This document shows, in pieces, positions 19,484-64,000 of a stretch of 64,000 nt of DNA (position 1 is its first letter; the number at the start of each line of letters is the position of its first letter). The stretch is from Amycolatopsis methanolica 239 (GTDB lineage: Bacteria; Actinomycetota; Actinomycetes; Mycobacteriales; Pseudonocardiaceae): the NCBI RefSeq assembly GCF_000739085.1, contig NZ_CP009110.1, positions 1,054,001-1,118,000 on the forward strand, given 5' to 3'. Position numbers and translations under genes: made by a program. The notes beneath the pieces were generated by a model that did not search any database, was not told where the DNA came from, and saw only the letters and a list, made by a program, of their open reading frames with translations.

Positions 19484-19873
19484 GCGGACGAGTTGGCCGG
19501 GCGGTCGCGAGGGTCACCCCCTCGAGGAAAGTCCGGACTCCGCAGGGCAGGGTGGTTGCTAACCGCAACCCGGGGCGACCCGCGGGACAGTGCCACAGAA
19601 AACAGACCGCCCCGGCTTCACCGCCGGGGTAAGGGTGAAACGGTGGTGTAAGAGACCACCAGCACCCCGGGTGACCGGGGTGGCTAGGTAAACCCCACCC
19701 GGAGCAAGGCCAAGAGGGCGCCGCGAGGCGCCTGCGCAGGCGATCGAGGGCGGCCCGTCCGATGCCTGCGGGTAGGCCGCTCGAGCCTGCCGGCGACGGC
19801 AGGCCTAGATGGATGGCCGCCGCCGCGGTTCCGGCCGCGGAACAGGATCCGGCTTACAGGCCAACTCGTCCGC
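19484..19873 (+). ncRNA. rnpB: RNase P RNA (bacterial type A)
   Basis: The catalytic RNA of RNase P, which matures tRNA 5' ends. Conserved landmarks: 'gaggaaagtccggactcc' (P4/CR-I, starting at ~19523), 'acagaaaacagaccgcc' (~19596), 'aagggtgaaa' (~19631), 'ggtaaacccc' (~19687), 'cctagatggatg' (~19803) and the closing 'ggcttacagg'. The ends pair perfectly: 19484-19498 (gcggacgagttggcc) with 19859-19873, a 15-bp P1/P2-type stem that fixes both termini. About 390 nt, normal for actinobacterial type A. Confidence 0.96.
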
Positions 19874-21938: not shown

Positions 21939-22205
21939 ATGACCATGATGACACTTGTGCAGCAGCTGGCGCAGGGCGAGATCAGGACCCGTGGAGTCCA
22001 GCAGTGGCTCCTCGACAACATCATCCCCCTGGTCCTGCTCGCCGTCGCGCTGTTGCTGCTCTGGCTCGGTGGCGGCAAAGGCGACAACGCCGGCGTCATG
22101 CGCCGCCTGGCCGGTGTGGTGATCGCGCTCGCGATCGTCGGCCTCGCCGTGAGCGGGCTCGGCGTCAACGTCGGCGAGTGGATCGCCGGCTTGTTCACCA
22201 GCTGA
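21939..22205 (+). CDS. Small two-helix membrane protein of the T4SS-like operon
   Basis: An 88-residue protein starting at ATG 21939 (an in-frame ATG two codons later is possible). It has two hydrophobic helices at ~28-44 and ~58-72, joined by a short basic/polar loop (GGGKGDNAGVMRR), and a short C-terminal tail. Size and topology resemble VirB2/TrbC-type pilin precursors or small TM proteins that open actinobacterial conjugation operons, but there is no clear cleaved signal peptide. First of eight co-directional genes (21939-30601). Its role as pilin-like subunit is inference from position and topology. Confidence 0.75.
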   Translation: MTMMTLVQQLAQGEIRTRGVQQWLLDNIIPLVLLAVALLLLWLGGGKGDNAGVMRRLAGVVIALAIVGLAVSGLGVNVGEWIAGLFTS

Positions 22206-22223
22206 CGGCGCGGGGTAGCGCGC

Positions 22224-22679
22224 GTGCGGATTCGAACCGATGACGAGGTCTACCGGGTCGACGCGGTCTGGCTCGGCCCGCCGAAGGCGACGTTCCCGTG
22301 GCGGGCCCGCTACGTGGCCTGGGGCGTCGGCATCCCGGTGTTCCTCGTCGTCCTGGCGGTGGAGCGGCAGCTCGGCTTTGGGTTCGGCTTCTTCTCCACC
22401 GCGTGGGCGTTCGTCATCACGATCTTGATCACCCGGATGATCACCGCCAAGATCAGTCACGAGCGTCCGCTCGGAGCCGTCATGACGATGTGGCTGCGCG
22501 AGCTGCAGACGCCCCGCGAGAAGACCTCCGGAGAGGGCGGTGCGGTCACGGCCACGAAGATCCGCGTGCGGAACCAGCGGCCGCTGCCCAAGCACAAACG
22601 GCACCTCGCCGCGGCGGGGTCGCATCCTCACCACCAGACAGCACGACCGCGTGGCGCGCGCACTCCGGCGCCACGGTAG
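22224..22679 (+). CDS. PrgI/TcpE-like membrane protein of the T4SS-like operon
   Basis: A 151-residue protein from GTG 22224. The N-terminal 30 residues are soluble, then two TM helices follow (~31-47 and ~57-70), then a cytosolic, strongly basic tail (many Lys/Arg/His/Pro from ~95 onward). This is the layout of PrgI/TcpE/VirB3-like proteins, which in Gram-positive conjugation systems always precede the VirB4-type ATPase and dock it at the membrane. The ATPase gene follows after 10 bp. The basic tail longer than usual may contact DNA or acidic lipids (inference). Confidence 0.75.
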   Translation: MRIRTDDEVYRVDAVWLGPPKATFPWRARYVAWGVGIPVFLVVLAVERQLGFGFGFFSTAWAFVITILITRMITAKISHERPLGAVMTMWLRELQTPREKTSGEGGAVTATKIRVRNQRPLPKHKRHLAAAGSHPHHQTARPRGARTPAPR

Positions 22680-22689
22680 GAGGTAGAGG

Positions 22690-25596
22690 TTGTTCGGAAG
22701 CGGCGGACGCCGGAAGGCCGGGAAGTCCGACCCGAGCGGGGCTGCGCAGTGGCCGCCGCAGCCGGGTCGCGCCCCCGCCAAGCAGGGCCGCCGGCTCCCC
22801 GGTGAGCAGGCGATTCCCACCTATACCCCGTCGATCTCCCTGCGAACCATCGACGGGCACCTGGTGCGCACCGAGAACGAGGTCTACGCCTGGTACCGGC
22901 TGGCGCCGCAGCGGTGGTCGTTCCGGTCGGACTCGCAGCGGCGCGACCTGATCGCCGCGATCGCCGGCCAGTACGCCGAGTTGCAGGGCCGCTGGCTGCA
23001 CCTGCGCGTCACCACCCGCCCGTACCCGATCCGGATGTGGGCCGAGGCGCACGTCCACAACGCCATCCGCCGCCCGCCGGACGTGCCGGGCGCGCTGTCG
23101 TTCGACGACTACCTGATCGGCGAGCAGCAGCAGCTGCTCGGCCGGTCGATGGCGGAGAAAGAGGTCTACATCGGGGTGCAGGTGCAGACCCGGCGGGTCG
23201 TCGACCGCGCGGTCGAGCGCGCCGCCCCGCTGCTCCGCCGCATCCTGCCCGAGGCCGTCGACGCCGAGCTGGCGGCGCTGGACTCCGAGGTCGAGCACCT
23301 GGACCAGGTGATCGGATCGTCCGGCCTGGAGGGCCGCCCGGTGCACGCCGAGGAGATGTCCTGGCTGATGCACCGCTCGTGCTCGCTCGGCCTGCCCGCG
23401 CCGCGGCACCTGCCCGCCGTGCCCGGCGCGGCGTGGGAGCCGGAGGACCTGGCCAGCTTCACCGACGCGGCGGACTTCCACGCCGAGCCGTACGCCCCGA
23501 CGCTCACCGTGCGCGGCCGCACCGGGTCGAACGCCGGGGTGCAGCGGCACCTCGCGGTGCTGACCGTCGGGCAGATGCACGGTCTGCAGATCCCCGAGGT
23601 CGACGACCCGTGGGTGCAGCACGCCGACCGGCTGCCCGCCTCGGTGGAGTGGTCGGCCCGCATCTACGTGCGCCGCCCCGAGGAGGTGGCCGGCGAGCTG
23701 CAGCGGCAGATGAACAAGGTGCGCTCGCAGGTCAAGCACTACACCGACGAGCACGAGCTGGAGCCGCCGCAGTCGCTGGCGCGGCAGGCGACCCGCGTGC
23801 TGGAGATCGACGACGAGATGACGTCCGGCTTCACGGCGCTGGCCACGCGCGTGCGGTCGTGGTGGCGGCTGGCGGTCTCCGGCGACAGCGAGCGCGAGGC
23901 GCTGCGGCTGGCCCAGCAGCTGCTCGACCTGTACAAGCCGAAGATCGCGATCGAGCACCCGGAGGCGCAGTACGCGCTGGCGCGGGAGTTCATCCCGGGC
24001 GAGCCGCTGTCCTCGTCGGCGTACATGCGCCGCGGTTCGGTCGTGTGGGCCGCGGCGGCGGTGCCGACGGCCACGGCCGAGGTCGGCGACCGGCGGGGCA
24101 TCCTGCTCGGCGAGACGGTCACCGCCACCCGGCGCCCGGTGGCCTGGGACCCGTGGATGGCGCAGGAGATCCGGGACGGGTCCGGTCTGACCGCGATGGT
24201 CGCCGGTCTCGGTGGCGGCAAGTCGTTCCTCGGCGGCGGCATCGTCTACAAGACGCTGCGGGCCGGGGCGCACTGGACGCTGCTGGACCCGTCCGGCCCG
24301 CTGGCCCGGTTGTGCGACCTGCCGGAGATCCGGCCGTACGCGCGGCCCATCAACTTGCTGAATGCACAACCCGGCATCCTGAACCCGTACCGCGTGGTGG
24401 CCGAGCCGCTGCTCGAGCACTTCATGGACGAGGAGGACCCGGAGCGGGCGTGGCGGCGGGAGCGTGCGCTGGCCGGCGCGACCCGGCGGCGGCTCGTGCT
24501 GGACGTGCTCACCGGCGTGCTGCCGTACGAGGTCGCGCGGATGCCGCAGAGCCGGATCGTGCTGCTCCGGGCGGTGCGGGCCGTCGGCGGCCGGTATGAC
24601 GCCGACCCCGGCCAGGTGATCGATGCGCTGCGCCGGGACTCCAGCGAGCATCACGAGCACGCGGTGGTGGTGGCGGACTTCCTGGACGAGATGCGCGAGC
24701 GCATGTCGCTGCTGATCCCGGAGAGCGACGCCGACCCGTACTCGGAGACGCGGGACGACCGGCTGACGGTGCTGACGATGGCCGGGCTGACGCTGCCGAA
24801 GGACGGTGTCGGCCGCGAGCACTGGACCGACGCCGAGGCGTTGGGTGTCGAGATGCTGAACCTGGCGGCGTGGCTGACGCAGCGGTCGGTGTACGAGAAG
24901 CCGAAGGACCTGCGCAAGGGTGTGTGGATCGACGAGGCGTTCTTCCTGTCCGAGGTGCCGACGGGGCGGGTGCTGATGAACCGGTTCGCGCGTGACTCGC
25001 GGAAGTGGAACGTCCGGGTGCTGCTGTCGTCGCAGATCCCGGCGGACTTCCTGAAGATCCAGGGCTTCGTCGCGCTGCTGGACTCGGTGTTCGTCGGGCG
25101 CCTCGACGACGACGAGGCGCAGGCCGACGCGCTGCGGTTGCTGAAGGTGCCGGTCGGGGTCGGGTACGAGCAAGTGGTCGCGTCGCTGGGCAGGCGGCCC
25201 GGTGCGCAGCGCGGCCTGGAGCGCGATCGCGAGCCGAGGCAGTTCATCTTCGGCGACGGCGCCGGCGGGGTGGAGCGGATCCGGGTGGACTTCTCCGGGC
25301 CGCACCTGGCCCACCTGCGCGCGTCGCTGGACACGACGCCGGGTTCGAAGGACGCCCTGCCCGCGGACACGCACGCCCGGGACGCGGAGGCGCCGCGCGA
25401 GCAGCAGCACGTGGCGGCCCCGCCACCGGACGACGAGCTTGAGCCGGACCTGGAGCTTGCCGCCGAGCGCGATCTGGGGCTCACGGAGGAGCAGATCCTC
25501 GCCGAGGACGTGCCGGGCTCCGGCGGTCCCGCGGCGGGCGCCGCCGAGGGCGAACGAGCCGGTGCGGGCAAGCGCGGCGGCTGGGACGCCGCATGA
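22690..25596 (+). CDS. VirB4-like ATPase of a type IV secretion-like system
   Basis: A 968-residue motor protein starting at TTG 22690 after SD 'aggtagagg'. The N-terminal ~480 residues are the VirB4/TraC-type assembly domain ('YTPSISLRTIDGHLVRTENEVYAWYRL' region). The ATPase domain follows: Walker A 'AGLGGGKS' at ~505-512 (first Gly replaced by Ala), Walker B 'GVWIDEAFF' at ~742-750, then 'LLSSQIPADF' (sensor-type Gln). The C-terminal ~90 residues are acidic and low-complexity. It would power substrate or subunit export through the VirB6-like channel encoded next (ATGA overlap). It matches the SCO6880-type actinobacterial group (naming from memory). Confidence 0.88.
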   Translation: MFGSGGRRKAGKSDPSGAAQWPPQPGRAPAKQGRRLPGEQAIPTYTPSISLRTIDGHLVRTENEVYAWYRLAPQRWSFRSDSQRRDLIAAIAGQYAELQGRWLHLRVTTRPYPIRMWAEAHVHNAIRRPPDVPGALSFDDYLIGEQQQLLGRSMAEKEVYIGVQVQTRRVVDRAVERAAPLLRRILPEAVDAELAALDSEVEHLDQVIGSSGLEGRPVHAEEMSWLMHRSCSLGLPAPRHLPAVPGAAWEPEDLASFTDAADFHAEPYAPTLTVRGRTGSNAGVQRHLAVLTVGQMHGLQIPEVDDPWVQHADRLPASVEWSARIYVRRPEEVAGELQRQMNKVRSQVKHYTDEHELEPPQSLARQATRVLEIDDEMTSGFTALATRVRSWWRLAVSGDSEREALRLAQQLLDLYKPKIAIEHPEAQYALAREFIPGEPLSSSAYMRRGSVVWAAAAVPTATAEVGDRRGILLGETVTATRRPVAWDPWMAQEIRDGSGLTAMVAGLGGGKSFLGGGIVYKTLRAGAHWTLLDPSGPLARLCDLPEIRPYARPINLLNAQPGILNPYRVVAEPLLEHFMDEEDPERAWRRERALAGATRRRLVLDVLTGVLPYEVARMPQSRIVLLRAVRAVGGRYDADPGQVIDALRRDSSEHHEHAVVVADFLDEMRERMSLLIPESDADPYSETRDDRLTVLTMAGLTLPKDGVGREHWTDAEALGVEMLNLAAWLTQRSVYEKPKDLRKGVWIDEAFFLSEVPTGRVLMNRFARDSRKWNVRVLLSSQIPADFLKIQGFVALLDSVFVGRLDDDEAQADALRLLKVPVGVGYEQVVASLGRRPGAQRGLERDREPRQFIFGDGAGGVERIRVDFSGPHLAHLRASLDTTPGSKDALPADTHARDAEAPREQQHVAAPPPDDELEPDLELAAERDLGLTEEQILAEDVPGSGGPAAGAAEGERAGAGKRGGWDAA

Positions 25597-27653
25597 CGCT
25601 CGTGACGATCCTGAGCGTGCTGGCGATGGCCGGTGGCTGGCACGCGCTGCGGAGGGGCTTGAAGGACCGGGGCAGCCGGCGGAAGAGACCGTCCCGGTGG
25701 GCGGCCGTCGTGGCGGTCGCACTGCTGATGGGCTTCCAGACGACGGTGATGGCGCCATCCGCCACAGCGGCGGCGTGTGGTGACGCACCCAGTCCCGAGC
25801 GGCCCGGTTCCGGCCTGGTGGGTGCTCTCGACCCACCCGCCCGGCACGGTGAGAACGGCAGTGCCTACCTGGACTACAGCTACGCCGGGACGGTCTGGTA
25901 CGTCTACCAGACCGACTGCGGCCCGCTGTCCGGCATCACGAGCCCGAACACGACCATCGACACCTGGGCAGGAAACCAGCTCTTCAACATCGGCAAGAAC
26001 ATCGTGGGTGCGACGAACTCCCTGCACTACACGGTGATGGAGGGCGGGCTACTCAACCCGATCTACAACGCCGTGAAGTCGGGCGCGGAGAAGGTCTACA
26101 ACAACGTCTACGCGCAACTCTTCGGCTTGTTCGCCCTGGTGCTCGCCATCATGATGTTCCGCAACATCTGGCGCGGCGACCTGTCGACGGTGAGCAAACG
26201 CGGGCTCTACGCCCTCGGTGCCGTGTGGCTGGCGGCGTCGTCGATGGCGATGTTGCAGTACTTCGACCCGATCGACCGGGCCATCGTGCAGACCAGCACC
26301 AACATCCAGGCCGGGTTCGTCGACAACTCGGGTGACCGGATCGTCCGCGAAGTGCTGCCGACGGACCTGTACAACCAGGTCATCTACAACAATTGGCTGC
26401 GTGGCGAGTTCGGCGCGCCGGACGCGCCGCAGGCCCAGCAGTTCGGGCGCCCGCTCCTCGACGCGCAGGCCTTCACGTGGACGCAGATCCGCAACGGCGA
26501 CGACGCCAACCAGGGCGTGGTGGACGCGAAGAAGGCCGCGTACAAGAACATCTCCACACAGCTGGGGCCCGCGACCCAGTACTTCACGGGTGAGGGCGGC
26601 AGCCGGACGGGGTCCGGGTTCCTCGCGCTCGGCCAGAGCCTGGTCTACGCGTTGTTCCAGCTGCTGGCCAAGGCTTCGGTGTTGCTGGCTCAGGTGCTGA
26701 TCCGGCTGTTCGTCCTGACGGCGCCGTTGATCGGCCTGGTGGCCCTGGTCCATCACGACATCCTGCGTCGCGTGGCGCGGTTGCTCGGGGCGGTCGGCTT
26801 CAACCTGCTCGTCCTCTCCGTGCTCGCCGGCGTGCACGCCCTTCTCCTGCAGGCGATCTTCGCCGCGGGGAACTCGCTGTCGATCCTCACCCAGATGGTC
26901 ATGGCGGGCCTCGTGACCGTCCTGCTGTTCCTCGTCGGCAGGCCCGTTCGCCGTCTGTGGCAGATGGTCGAAATGTCCGTCGGCATGGTGGGGTCCTCCA
27001 TTCCGGCCCCCAGTGGTGGCCTGTTCAGCCGCTTCCGCAAGAAGCAGGGGCCGACGCCGCAGGACGAGTTCTGGGAGAGCGTCCGCGAGGGCGAGGAGAG
27101 CGAGGTCGCCAGCCCGACCGGCTCGGCGGGCCGCGGGCGTCCCGAGGCGACCGTCTTCGCCACGGCCCAGCGTCTCGACGGCGCCGGCGCCATGGCCGCC
27201 CGTCCCGCCGCCGCCTGGTCCGGTGCGCCCTGGCCTGGTGGCGGGCCGGCGTTGCCCGGGCACGCCAGGCCGGGCCTGCCCGCCGGCGGCGGCCACCAGC
27301 CCGCGTACGCCGGCTACGCACCGGAGGGCGCGGACCCGGACGCGTTCGTCTACTCCGCCCCGCCCGGCACCACCCGCCGCGCGGACGGCTGGATGCCGCC
27401 CGTCGCGCAGCGGCCCAGCCGCCGCGTCGACACCTCGCCCGTCTACGACCGCGGCTGGGACGAACCCGACCCCGTCGTCGTCCCGTCGCGCATCTCGCGG
27501 CCGGGCATGAGCGCCACCCCCGCCCAGCGGCCGGAACCGCGCCGCGCCGGGCAGGAACTCGTCGGCGGCAAGCCGGTCCACGTGCTGTACCGGCCCTCGC
27601 GCGGGCTCGAGGTGCGCGACGACTCCCGTGACACCGACCGGATCGTGCGGTGA
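25593..27653 (+). CDS. VirB6/TrbL-like polytopic membrane protein
   Basis: A 686-residue protein overlapping the ATPase stop (ATGA). After a membrane/signal segment (~35-60, ending 'MAPSATAAACG') comes an extracellular part with Cys residues, then helices near 168-190, 203-222 and at least four between ~350 and ~465 ('VLLAQVLIRLFVLTAPLIGLVALVHHDI', 'LLVLSVLAGVHALLLQAIFAAG', 'MVMAGLVTVLLFLVGRPV'). The last ~200 residues are a Pro/Ala/Arg-rich disordered cytosolic tail. The arrangement matches the channel-forming VirB6/TrbL/TcpH component of Gram-positive T4SS. The tail could recruit substrate; that is inference. Confidence 0.82.
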   Translation: MTLVTILSVLAMAGGWHALRRGLKDRGSRRKRPSRWAAVVAVALLMGFQTTVMAPSATAAACGDAPSPERPGSGLVGALDPPARHGENGSAYLDYSYAGTVWYVYQTDCGPLSGITSPNTTIDTWAGNQLFNIGKNIVGATNSLHYTVMEGGLLNPIYNAVKSGAEKVYNNVYAQLFGLFALVLAIMMFRNIWRGDLSTVSKRGLYALGAVWLAASSMAMLQYFDPIDRAIVQTSTNIQAGFVDNSGDRIVREVLPTDLYNQVIYNNWLRGEFGAPDAPQAQQFGRPLLDAQAFTWTQIRNGDDANQGVVDAKKAAYKNISTQLGPATQYFTGEGGSRTGSGFLALGQSLVYALFQLLAKASVLLAQVLIRLFVLTAPLIGLVALVHHDILRRVARLLGAVGFNLLVLSVLAGVHALLLQAIFAAGNSLSILTQMVMAGLVTVLLFLVGRPVRRLWQMVEMSVGMVGSSIPAPSGGLFSRFRKKQGPTPQDEFWESVREGEESEVASPTGSAGRGRPEATVFATAQRLDGAGAMAARPAAAWSGAPWPGGGPALPGHARPGLPAGGGHQPAYAGYAPEGADPDAFVYSAPPGTTRRADGWMPPVAQRPSRRVDTSPVYDRGWDEPDPVVVPSRISRPGMSATPAQRPEPRRAGQELVGGKPVHVLYRPSRGLEVRDDSRDTDRIVR

Positions 27654-27658
27654 TGTAG

Positions 27659-28255
27659 ATGCCGATCCGCACCAACCGCGGCCGCGCCGCCGTCTACCGC
27701 CGCATCTGGGGTTTCCCCCTGCGCTCGCCCGCCCACCTCGTCGGCACCGCCGTCGCGGTGATCGCGTTGATCGTGGCCATCGGCATCGTCGTGCCGCAGC
27801 TCCTCGGCAACCCCAACCGCTCGGGGCCGGAACCGGTCCGCATCCAGGACCCCGGCGCGAGCAGCAGCCCGACCAGCGCGGGCTCCTCGCCGGCCCCGAT
27901 GTCGACCCGGCTCACCGCGCCCCTGCTGCAGCCGACCTCCGCCGTGCCGGATCCGGCGGCCCTGCAGACCGCGAAGCAGTGGGCCACCGCGTGGGCCACC
28001 CACCCGGCAGGCATGACCACCGCGCAGTGGCTGGAGGGCCTCCGTCCACTCACGACGGAGGAGTACCTGCCGGAGATGTCCACTGTGGACCCGGCGAACA
28101 TCCCGGCCACCCGGGTCACCGGCGAACCCACCGTCACGAAGTCCTACACCAGTTCCGTCGAGGTGCTCGTCCCGACGGACGGCCCGAAGCTGTCGATCAC
28201 TGTCGCGAAGACCCCGTCCGGCTGGCTCGTCACCGGCTACGACCAGGCGAGCTGA
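27659..28255 (+). CDS. TcpC/VirB8-like membrane-anchored protein
   Basis: A 198-residue bitopic protein starting at ATG 27659. A basic N-terminus precedes one TM helix (~27-47), a Ser/Pro linker (~60-90) and an extracellular domain of ~110 residues ('TAKQWATAWATHPAGMTTAQWLEGLRPLTTEEYLP' region, then beta-rich 'SYTSSVEVLVPTDGPKLSITVAKT'). Strand-rich NTF2-like C-terminal domains on a single helix are characteristic of TcpC/VirB8/Orf13 scaffold proteins. It sits between the VirB6-like and the cell-wall hydrolase genes, as in Tn916- and pCW3-type systems. Spacing to neighbours is 5 and 3 bp. Confidence 0.78.
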   Translation: MPIRTNRGRAAVYRRIWGFPLRSPAHLVGTAVAVIALIVAIGIVVPQLLGNPNRSGPEPVRIQDPGASSSPTSAGSSPAPMSTRLTAPLLQPTSAVPDPAALQTAKQWATAWATHPAGMTTAQWLEGLRPLTTEEYLPEMSTVDPANIPATRVTGEPTVTKSYTSSVEVLVPTDGPKLSITVAKTPSGWLVTGYDQAS

Positions 28256-28258
28256 TCC

Positions 28259-29257
28259 ATGCGGCTGGGTGTCCTCGTCGGCGTTCTCGTCGCCGTCCTC
28301 TTCGCCGGGGTCGCGACCGTCGGTGTCGTGACGAAGGTCGTCAGCGACCAGCAGCAGGCCCAGATGCAGGCCGCCTACACCAACGTCAGCTGCGACGCGG
28401 CGATCGGCCCGAGCGTGCCGGGCACCGACCAAGGTGCCGCGCAGGCCGGGAAGCTCAACGACGAGCAGCGCTACATCATCAGCCAGATCATCGAGATCGG
28501 CAAGCAGCGCGGCCTGTCGCCGCGCGCGTGGCAGATCGCGATCCAGGCCGGCATGACCGAGTCCGGCATGCGGAACCTGAACTACGGCGACCGCGACTCG
28601 CTGGGCATCTTCCAGATGCGCCCGTCGATGGGCTGGGGCACGGTCGCGCAGCTGCAGGACATCCCGTACCAGATCAACAAGTTCTACAACGTCCTGCTCA
28701 CCGTGCCGGACTGGGACAAGCAGCGTCCCGGCGCGTCGGCGCAGGACGTCGAGCGGTCCGCGTTCCCCGAGCGCTACCACAAGTGGGAGCAGATGGCGGC
28801 CCACCTGGTCGAGAACCTGGGCCAGGTCGCGGACATGGTCGGCTGCGGGCAGAGCGCGGGCCTGGTGCTGCCGCCGAACAACGCCGCGGCCGCCGCGATC
28901 CAGTTCGCGCTGGGGGAGCAGGGCAAGCCGTACGTGTGGGGCGCGACGGGGCCGAACTCCTACGACTGCTCCGGCTTGATGCTGCGGGCCTACGAGGCGG
29001 CGGGCATCACGCTCAGCCGGGTGTCGCGGGACCAGTACAAGAACGGCGCGATGCTTCCCGTGCGTGACGCCCAGCCCGGTGACCTGCTCTTCTGGGCGTA
29101 CGACCCGTCGAACCCGGCGACCATCCACCACGTCGCGATGTACCTTGGCGACGGGAAGATCGTGGAGGCCCAGCAGACCGGCGTGCCGGTGCACACCCGG
29201 AAGGTTTCCTGGAACGAAGACGAGCTTGTGCCGCAGGCAGTCCGGCCCGGCGTGTAG
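28259..29257 (+). CDS. Membrane-anchored lytic transglycosylase-like / NlpC-P60 hydrolase
   Basis: A 332-residue wall hydrolase. An N-terminal TM/signal anchor (~5-28) is followed by a transglycosylase-like region with Glu101 in 'QAGMTESGMRN' and 'DRDSLGIFQMRPSMGWG' (SLT-type GIFQ motif), then a C-terminal NlpC/P60 peptidase (~205-332) with catalytic Cys237 in 'YDCSGL' and His290/291 in 'TIHHVAMYLG'. Two wall-cutting domains in one protein are typical of VirB1/TcpG/Orf14 enzymes that open peptidoglycan for a T4SS. It is the sixth gene of the operon. Confidence 0.92.
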   Translation: MRLGVLVGVLVAVLFAGVATVGVVTKVVSDQQQAQMQAAYTNVSCDAAIGPSVPGTDQGAAQAGKLNDEQRYIISQIIEIGKQRGLSPRAWQIAIQAGMTESGMRNLNYGDRDSLGIFQMRPSMGWGTVAQLQDIPYQINKFYNVLLTVPDWDKQRPGASAQDVERSAFPERYHKWEQMAAHLVENLGQVADMVGCGQSAGLVLPPNNAAAAAIQFALGEQGKPYVWGATGPNSYDCSGLMLRAYEAAGITLSRVSRDQYKNGAMLPVRDAQPGDLLFWAYDPSNPATIHHVAMYLGDGKIVEAQQTGVPVHTRKVSWNEDELVPQAVRPGV

Positions 29258-29270
29258 AAGGTGGTGCCCC

Positions 29271-30353
29271 GTGGCGAAGAAGTTCGGTAAGCGCAACAAG
29301 AAGCCGGCGCAACTCAACGACCTGTTCGGCGCCCCGCCGCCCCCGCCGCGGCCGGGTCCGCCGGCGTCGAGCACGCCCCTGGCGGACTACCTGTCGCAGG
29401 GGTTGCCGGGGGTGGACGAGGGTTACGTCGTGCTGCCGCGTTCGCTGGCGGAGTCGATGTCGCTGCCGTGGCAGCAGCAGATGGCCGGGTTGCTGTCGCA
29501 GTTCCACCAGACGCACCGGTCGCTGTCGTGGCCGGTCTACCGCACCGTGCCGTCGCGCTACGAGAAGCTCGTCGACCTGGACGAGGAGCAGCTCGCCGAG
29601 GTCGGGTACCTGGTCGAGATCGACGCCGACGGCGACATGGTCTACCGCGAGCGCAGCGGGCGGAAGGTGGAGGAGCCGGAGAACACGACGGTCCTGGTGC
29701 CCTGCCTCGACCCGATCCCGCCGCGCGGGCAGGCCCGCCGCGAGGCCGCGGCGCCCGCCCCGGACCCGGAGGCCCCCCGCGCCGCGCCGATGATCATCCC
29801 GCCGGCGCCGGTGTGGCGGACCACGCCGACCACGCCGTCACCCGAGGTGCCGCCGCTGCCGGAGCCGCCGAAGAAGCTCGCCGCGCCACGCACACCACCC
29901 GAGGCCGGTCCGGCCGCCGCGCCGGCGGGAGGCGCGGTGCCGGGCACGCCCGGCCCGGCTGCGCCCGACGCCGGTCCGGGCGCTGTGCCTTCGGGAGCTG
30001 CGATGCCGGGTCCGCTCGGCCCCGCCGCCCCCGATGCCGGCCCGGCCGCGGCGCCGGCGGGAGGCGCGATGCCGGGCCAGGGCACGCCACCCGAGCAGCG
30101 CGTGACGGACCCGAAGGCCTGGCGCACGTTGGAGCCCCAGGAGGAGCCGCCCCGGTTCACCGAGCCGCTGCCCCCGCAGCCCCAGCCGACCCCCGCGGCC
30201 GGCATCCCGCTCACCAGGGCCACCGACCCGGAGCCGACGCCGCCGCAGGGCACACCCCAGGTGAACCGCGACTGGTTCGAGCCGGACAACCCGGAGCACG
30301 AGTTCGGCCCGACCGGTCAGCCGACGGAGCTGCCGTACCGATACCGCCCCTGA
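29271..30353 (+). CDS. Proline/alanine-rich accessory protein of the T4SS-like operon
   Basis: A 360-residue protein from GTG 29271 (SD 'gaaggtgg'). A basic N-terminus (AKKFGKRNKK) is followed by a folded region (~35-140: 'LPRSLAESMSLPWQQQMAGLLSQFHQTHRSLSWPVYR' and 'LVEIDADGDMVYRERSGRKV') and a disordered Pro/Ala tail. The tail holds three tandem copies of a ~22-residue unit (codons 212-233, 234-255 and a shorter third; core 'AGPAAAPAGGA.PG'). No enzyme motif is seen. In position it corresponds to unassigned genes at the end of similar actinobacterial clusters. It might link the machine to DNA or the wall (inference). Confidence 0.75.
   Translation: MAKKFGKRNKKPAQLNDLFGAPPPPPRPGPPASSTPLADYLSQGLPGVDEGYVVLPRSLAESMSLPWQQQMAGLLSQFHQTHRSLSWPVYRTVPSRYEKLVDLDEEQLAEVGYLVEIDADGDMVYRERSGRKVEEPENTTVLVPCLDPIPPRGQARREAAAPAPDPEAPRAAPMIIPPAPVWRTTPTTPSPEVPPLPEPPKKLAAPRTPPEAGPAAAPAGGAVPGTPGPAAPDAGPGAVPSGAAMPGPLGPAAPDAGPAAAPAGGAMPGQGTPPEQRVTDPKAWRTLEPQEEPPRFTEPLPPQPQPTPAAGIPLTRATDPEPTPPQGTPQVNRDWFEPDNPEHEFGPTGQPTELPYRYRP
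29904..30080 (+). repeat. Tandem 66-bp (22-codon) repeats inside the Pro/Ala-rich gene
   Basis: Two complete 66-bp units (29904-29969, 29970-30035) and a partial third (30036 to ~30080) are in frame. Copies 1 and 3 are most alike ('gcgccggcgggaggcg' present in both), copy 2 more diverged, so the array may vary in number between strains. Confidence 0.8.
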
Positions 30354-30403
30354 CCGGCGCGGTGCCGCTGGCGCCGTCCGCCGCTGGGTGCGAAGCTCGG
30401 TGC

Positions 30404-30601
30404 ATGGCGAAGAGCAAGGACCCGAACCCGGACCAGGGCTGGTACTACAACACCCGCACCGGCGAGGTCGAGCACCTCGAGCGGTCGCGGTCCATCGACC
30501 TCCTCGGCCCCTACCCCGACGAGGCCACGGCCAAGCGTGCGCTCGAGATCGCCCGTGAGCGCACCAAGAAGGCCGACGAGGAAGACGCCAAGTGGCGCTG
30601 A
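30404..30601 (+). CDS. Small SPOR-like conserved protein
   Basis: A 65-residue soluble protein starting at ATG 30404. It begins 'MAKSKDPNPDQGWYYNTRTGEVE' and ends in a charged helix (AKRALEIARERTKKADEEDAKW). The 'WYYNTRTGEVE ... GPYPDEATAKRALE' pattern resembles the small SPOR-domain-type proteins widespread in actinobacteria; SPOR domains bind denuded glycan strands in other bacteria, though a cytosolic form with no signal cannot do this directly. It is 50 bp after the Pro/Ala-rich gene and just before the terminator, so it may be the last gene of the secretion-like operon or a separate small gene. Confidence 0.8.
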   Translation: MAKSKDPNPDQGWYYNTRTGEVEHLERSRSIDLLGPYPDEATAKRALEIARERTKKADEEDAKWR

Positions 30602-58863: not shown

Positions 58864-63783
<4,920 letters not shown>

Positions 63784-63787
63784 GCTA

Positions 63788-63819
63788 CGCATCCGCTCTG
63801 CAACTCTGAAACACCACAC
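63788..63819 (+). other. 3' arm of the 23S processing stalk
   Basis: This stretch is the near-complement (about 29 of 32 positions) of spacer bases 60617-60649. The two would pair around the 23S precursor and be cut by RNase III. Confidence 0.8.
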
Positions 63820-63852
63820 CAGTTGGAACATCTCTGGTGTTGTTTCGGAGAG

Positions 63853-63969
63853 TTTCGGTGGTTATGGCGGTAGGGAAACGCCCGGTCCCATTCCGAACCC
63901 GGAAGCTAAGCCTGCCAGCGCCGATGGTACTGCACCCCCGCGGGTGTGGGAGAGTAGGACACCGCCGAA
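63853..63969 (+). rRNA. rrf: 5S ribosomal RNA
   Basis: About 117 nt. Starts 'tttcggtggttatggcgg', contains 'cccattccgaacccggaagc' and ends 'agagtaggacaccgccgaa'; the two ends pair as expected for helix I. It is the third gene of the rRNA operon; the window ends 31 bp later, before any terminator. Confidence 0.96.
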
Positions 63970-64000
63970 CACAACTTCACAAATAAGCCCAGGGGCTCGG

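Follow-up and report, generated by a model that had tools for sequence, protein, structure and literature searches.

The window analyzed, a 64,000-nucleotide stretch of Amycolatopsis methanolica 239, contains eight genes on the same strand (g1-g8, positions 21939-30601; Table 1) with intergenic gaps of -4 to 50 bp, beginning approximately 2 kb downstream of rnpB, which confirms the tightly packed set of type IV secretion system (T4SS)-like genes of the initial annotation. Neither g1 nor g2 matches a Pfam or NCBIfam profile over the cut-off; g1 is assigned as a putative VirB2 purely by position and transmembrane (TM) layout, and g2 likewise as a putative VirB3/PrgI. The proposal that g3 encodes a VirB4-like ATPase was borne out by a match to PF12846 (E = 1.6e-18) and by Walker A and Walker B motifs (from residues 506 and 744, respectively), the GKS and DE of which are kept in 80 of 80 aligned rows (the window and 79 loci). 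The product of g4 has six TM-like stretches by hydropathy and matches NF046089 below the cut-off (E = 7e-4), and that of g5 is predicted to be VirB8/TcpC-like with an NTF2 fold. The wall hydrolase proposed for g6 is upheld by a match of its NlpC/P60 half to PF00877 (E = 4.2e-23) together with SLT-like motifs; the other half, without a profile match, is called SLT-like from these motifs, and the NlpC/P60 Cys and the Glu of the SLT-like motif are kept in 77 of 77 aligned rows (the window and 76 loci).

Table 1. Genes of the operon and the conserved RNA gene upstream (positions in the window).
Feature	Position	Strand	Description
g1	21939..22205	+	88 aa, two TM-like stretches; VirB2 (pilin) place
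g2	22224..22679	+	151 aa, two TM-like stretches; VirB3/PrgI place
g3	22690..25596	+	968 aa, VirB4-type ATPase
g4	25593..27653	+	686 aa, VirB6-like polytopic protein, long C-terminal tail
g5	27659..28255	+	198 aa, VirB8/TcpC-like (predicted): one TM and NTF2-like domain
g6	28259..29257	+	332 aa, wall hydrolase: SLT-like half and NlpC/P60 half
g7	29271..30353	+	360 aa, N-terminal domain and Pro/Ala-rich tail, without TM
g8	30404..30601	+	65 aa, small soluble protein; based on the open frame
rnpB (RNase P RNA)	19489..19872	+	RF00010, 286.9 bits; conserved upstream neighbor, outside the machine

The last two genes are of no recognized family. Alignments of g7 reveal a conserved N-terminal domain (about residues 31-150; mean column identity of 63% over 23 sequences, with many invariant residues) followed by a Pro/Ala-rich tail of highly variable length, so that the protein ranges from 157 aa in Lentzea, where the tail is lacking, to more than 900 aa, some lengths being cut by contig ends. 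The tail (29720-30353 in the window) varies by genus from absent to several hundred residues, and long-tailed orthologs keep the end motif FGPTG..PTE(I/L)PYR. No Pfam or NCBIfam profile matches g7. One profile of g7 itself was built on 32 rows; g7 was found in one of 396 genomes of a phylum-wide draw, namely that of A. methanolica (up to nine candidates scored per genome), and in none of 72,556 plasmid records. The product of g8, described as SPOR-like in the initial annotation, matches no family over the cut-off when scanned without its first codon.

Twenty large frames flanking the operon (6.9-42.9 kb of the window) gave Pfam matches to SURF1, fructosamine kinase, histidine phosphatase/RNase H, citrate/arsenite transporter, acyl-CoA dehydrogenase, luciferase-like monooxygenase, GntR/FCD, aldehyde dehydrogenase, ABC transporter parts and BacA, with no integrase or relaxase among them. 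Closer to the operon are genes for a SCO6745-family protein, a SCO5389-family protein, a MinD/ParA-like ATPase, an RNase II-like protein and a TroA-like protein. The window ends in an rRNA operon (58864-63970); ARAGORN predicted no tRNA genes in its spacer, nor any in the whole 64 kb.

The VirB4 gene is present in all 249 Pseudonocardiaceae genomes searched, representing 46 of 46 genera, and in each of the 19 Amycolatopsis genomes (A. methanolica counted in each case), so that the sporadic strain distribution named by the initial annotation as typical of an integrative element did not occur. In the phylum-wide draw at least 12 of 396 genomes matched, A. methanolica included, a lower bound that reflects the scoring of only two candidates per genome. 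Synteny was compared in the best 80 of 286 named loci, which span Amycolatopsis, Prauserella, Saccharomonospora, Lentzea, Saccharothrix, Umezawaea, Actinokineospora, Thermocrispum and others. Across these best 80 of 286, one gene order beside rnpB is kept, rnpB itself being detected in 69 of the 80, always upstream of g1, and tblastn located g1, g2 and g4 in 79 loci each, g3 in 80, g5 and g6 in 76 each, g7 in 75 and g8 in 64. Contig ends or assembly gaps account for some of the misses, and those of g7 and g8 are likely due to low complexity or short length; a profile search recovered g7 in one locus (L032) where tblastn had missed it. Within the same best 80 of 286 loci, the median identity of g3 is 85.6% (80 loci), and that of neighboring genes is 64.4% for u1 (41 loci), 76.9% for d2 (33), 66.7% for d3 (56), 74.8% for d4 (14) and 71.4% for d5 (60); for d1 it is 90.8%, but this gene was seen in only four close loci. 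Thus, the occurrence of VirB4 throughout the family and the fixed order beside rnpB indicate a core locus and not a mobile element, and together with the lack of an integrase among the 20 flanking frames they support the earlier view of a resident apparatus. One genome of another family of the same order (G455, locus L127), the sole representative of the next closest family in these comparisons, has counterparts of g2-g6, with g1 weak, and an M23 peptidase where NlpC/P60 would stand.

The nearest relatives of g1-g6 that were found are transfer modules on actinomycete plasmids, mostly linear. With g3 as the query, tblastn matched 94 plasmid records, every one below 60% identity (34-43% among the matches listed, 30 of the 94 records), from Rhodococcus (62), Prescottella (11), Streptomyces (7) and others; mobility typing classes 59 of them as non-mobilizable and 35 as mobilizable. 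Among 13 plasmids inspected in detail (L153-L157, L172-L179), 11 are recorded as linear and two as circular, and 12 are typed as non-mobilizable and one as MOBP. Profiles identified counterparts of g1-g6 in identical order on all five plasmids tested (L153-L157), with E values of 9e-18 to 9e-29 for g2 and 2e-34 to 2e-43 for g4 in all five, and of 2e-11 (L154), 5e-10 (L156) and 1e-3 to 3e-2 (the other three) for g1; the g5 profile was not significant in L156. Neither g7 nor g8 had a convincing match on these five plasmids. An FtsK-like ATPase of 668-891 aa adjoins the module in 12 of the 13 inspected plasmids (ten carry the annotation FtsK/SpoIIIE or conjugative DNA transfer protein, and two were recognized by their similarity to these), the stretch read of L154 containing none. 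Six-gene modules of this kind, for example those of the Streptomyces sp. 891-h plasmid, pSM17C, Rhodococcus pNSL1 and Pseudonocardia DSM 110487 p1, share the gene set and order of g1-g6 (five plasmids tested), but unlike the chromosomal operon they are accompanied by the FtsK-like ATPase (12 of 13) and often by ParA, have no counterpart of g7 or g8, and are not core. Judging by gene content, these modules probably function in transfer. One report describes linear mycobacterial plasmids with VirB4 and VirB8 and without a relaxase, and discusses relaxase-free transfer (PMC12803027), and another reports transfer of a linear plasmid carrying VirB4-like (AAA, Pfam12846) and TcpC genes (PMC9195940).

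A genome-wide search of A. methanolica agrees with the initial annotation, which had found neither a VirD4-type coupling protein nor a relaxase near the operon: PF12696 had no match, PF02534 had none over the cut-off (best E = 0.16), and the two relaxase families tested, PF03432 and PF08751, had none. Twelve stretches matched PF01580, as we presume is to be expected for FtsK and the type VII EccC proteins. Among 55 one-contig genomes of the family, a VirD4 match at the E 0.001 threshold is present in 18 and absent from 37, and three have a PF03432 match. The nearest mobile relatives, however, rely on an FtsK-like ATPase and are mostly without a typed relaxase, so that DNA transfer may be possible even where VirD4 and relaxase are lacking. 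More telling is that the chromosomal version also lacks the FtsK-like partner. When the plasmid FtsK-like ATPase was compared with the named loci (best 80 of 286), one (L083) gave a weak match (27% identity, E = 2e-4) approximately 8 kb upstream of g1, and no partner ATPase was found within the other 79. Of 20 one-contig genomes compared, one (G455) is of another family; in each of the 19 of the family, a single FtsK-like motor domain gives the best match (32-37% identity, E = 1e-14 to 3e-13), other frames match more weakly, and none of these complete genomes, that of A. methanolica included, has a close homolog of the plasmid protein. An FtsK-like frame of 308 aa (L112, G000:C1:4844905-4845468), which resembles short frames of G008, G031 and G061, is possibly part of another element. 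New relative to the initial annotation are the relationship to plasmid modules, the finding that the FtsK-like ATPase of those modules is absent, and g7 as an addition.

VirB4 trees of 38 and 33 rows came from quick searches and have long deep branches; in both, the 16 chromosomal rows group as a single clade with support of 100. Next to this clade are plasmids of Rhodococcus, Gordonia and Pseudonocardia (support of 83 and 91), and the VirB4 sequences of Streptomyces and Nonomuraea plasmids fall outside the combined group. A single chromosomal clade beside plasmid rows is consistent with a plasmid-type module having been domesticated once. Descent from plasmid to chromosome would account for this topology, with which transfer in the opposite direction is also compatible.

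With confidence no better than even, we favor the reading that the operon is a domesticated plasmid-type machine that now serves as an envelope translocator, exporting protein or building a surface fiber of g1 instead of conjugating DNA. The transfer module of a mostly linear type of actinomycete plasmid would have been domesticated once, in an ancestor of the Pseudonocardiaceae. The products of g1, g2, g4 and g5 would form a channel through the membrane, g6 would open the wall, and g3 would power assembly and transport. With neither a dedicated coupling ATPase (VirD4 or the FtsK-like partner) nor a relaxase of the kinds tested, the machine would no longer accept relaxase-bound DNA; because these DNA-loading parts are missing, it probably does a different job for the cell. 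The soluble additions g7 and g8 may be a substrate adaptor, a regulator or cargo, and the export of protein, or the fiber of g1, across the hyphal envelope would serve the cell itself. Any proposal that g7 is what replaced the coupling ATPase, or that it is cargo, is a guess. A wider version, in which a domesticated core organelle without its own coupling ATPase or relaxase relies on g7 as the substitute and passes macromolecules between or out of hyphae, is possible but tentative.

What counts against the favored reading is that FtsK or another FtsK-type ATPase (12 PF01580 stretches in the genome) could couple in trans, that the plasmid relatives are mostly without a typed relaxase, and that a VirD4 match occurs somewhere in 18 of the 55 one-contig family genomes. 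On the main rival reading the operon would be a resident, relaxase-free apparatus for conjugation or chromosome mobilization between hyphae, with a motor borrowed from housekeeping FtsK or another FtsK/HerA-type ATPase. The plasmid-borne relatives (11 of 13 linear, 12 of 13 without a typed relaxase, 12 of 13 with the FtsK-like ATPase) and the FtsK-like frame found in each of the 19 complete family genomes are in keeping with this, but no partner ATPase was found within 79 of the best 80 of 286 named loci and the genome-wide match is one of motor-domain similarity only, which leaves DNA transfer doubtful. Alternatively, the host may retain the operon as a helper channel for use in trans by plasmids that enter with an FtsK-like ATPase of their own, and the homologous plasmid modules do encode the missing ATPase; this is highly unlikely, since the five plasmids tested possess their own counterparts of g1-g6 and a helper is hard to reconcile with retention by 249 of 249 hosts.

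The operon may also be a developmental envelope complex comparable to Cmd of Streptomyces, required for aerial growth or for segregation of the chromosome and moving hardly any cargo, or none, to the outside. The cmdABCDEF genes form a chromosomal VirB4-like cluster resembling the transfer genes of the linear plasmid SLP2, and their deletion disturbs sporulation and chromosome segregation and leaves transfer of an SLP2-derived plasmid unchanged (PMC2782261). This explanation is unlikely: cmd-like genes compared with g1-g6 gave hhalign probabilities of only 0-15 (100 for the plasmid VirB4 control), and the wall hydrolase, both catalytic halves of which are intact, points to penetration of the wall. 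An inert or decaying integrative element would also lack a coupling protein and the relaxases tested, as degraded elements do, but occurrence in 249 of 249 genomes of 46 genera, strong conservation, a fixed place and intact motifs make decay scarcely credible.

The Pseudonocardiaceae are soil bacteria known for antibiotics, and a conserved immobile T4SS in this family, to which Amycolatopsis, Saccharothrix and Lentzea belong, would represent a new, genetically accessible function of the cell. The operon would also illustrate how a conjugation machine loses DNA loading. The comparison brings to light a group of plasmids that carry a complete transfer module yet are often classed as non-mobilizable by mobility typing; the recurrence of this module together with an FtsK-like ATPase but without a typed relaxase, on mostly linear plasmids of actinomycetes, suggests that relaxase-based typing may miss conjugative plasmids.

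To our knowledge, nearly all known Gram-positive T4SSs belong to mobile elements. The literature covered, which excludes most subscription journals, yielded no description of the operon, and one account states that only conjugative Gram-positive T4SSs have been characterized in some detail (PMC6540685). Those of the pCF10, pIP501 and pCW3 type share with the operon VirB4, a VirB6-like protein (putative for g4), a VirB8 with NTF2 fold (predicted for g5) and a wall hydrolase, but the operon is immobile and without a coupling protein or the relaxases tested. The Streptomyces cmdABCDEF cluster (SCO4126-SCO4131) likewise combines a chromosomal VirB4-like ATPase with membrane proteins. Cmd-like loci were located in four genomes taken as Streptomyces, using SCO6880_fam (NF042935) and gene layout and not SCO numbers; the cmdA-F labels are assignments made here. 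Unlike the operon, these loci appear from sequence to have VirB4 split over two genes; cmdB has an hhalign probability of 0.8 with g3 and of 53 with plasmid VirB4 (a weak P-loop likeness), and the SCO6880 family is absent from the A. methanolica genome. A cmd-like locus (L167-L170) occurs in four of four Streptomyces-like genomes, the ATPase half of the apparently split VirB4 being 91-97% identical to that of L167. With no detectable homology to g1-g6, Cmd is a functional parallel and a different system. The T4SS of Patescibacteria, as described in PMC12102498, resembles the operon in being chromosomal, widespread and mostly without a relaxase, and is thought to be co-opted; unlike the A. methanolica genome, Patescibacteria commonly encode VirD4 homologs, according to the same paper. 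Bordetella Ptl and Brucella VirB, which it names as T4SSs without a coupling protein (PMC12102498), are Gram-negative machines likened here by description and not by sequence; beside them, the operon would add another natural T4SS that works without a dedicated coupling ATPase.
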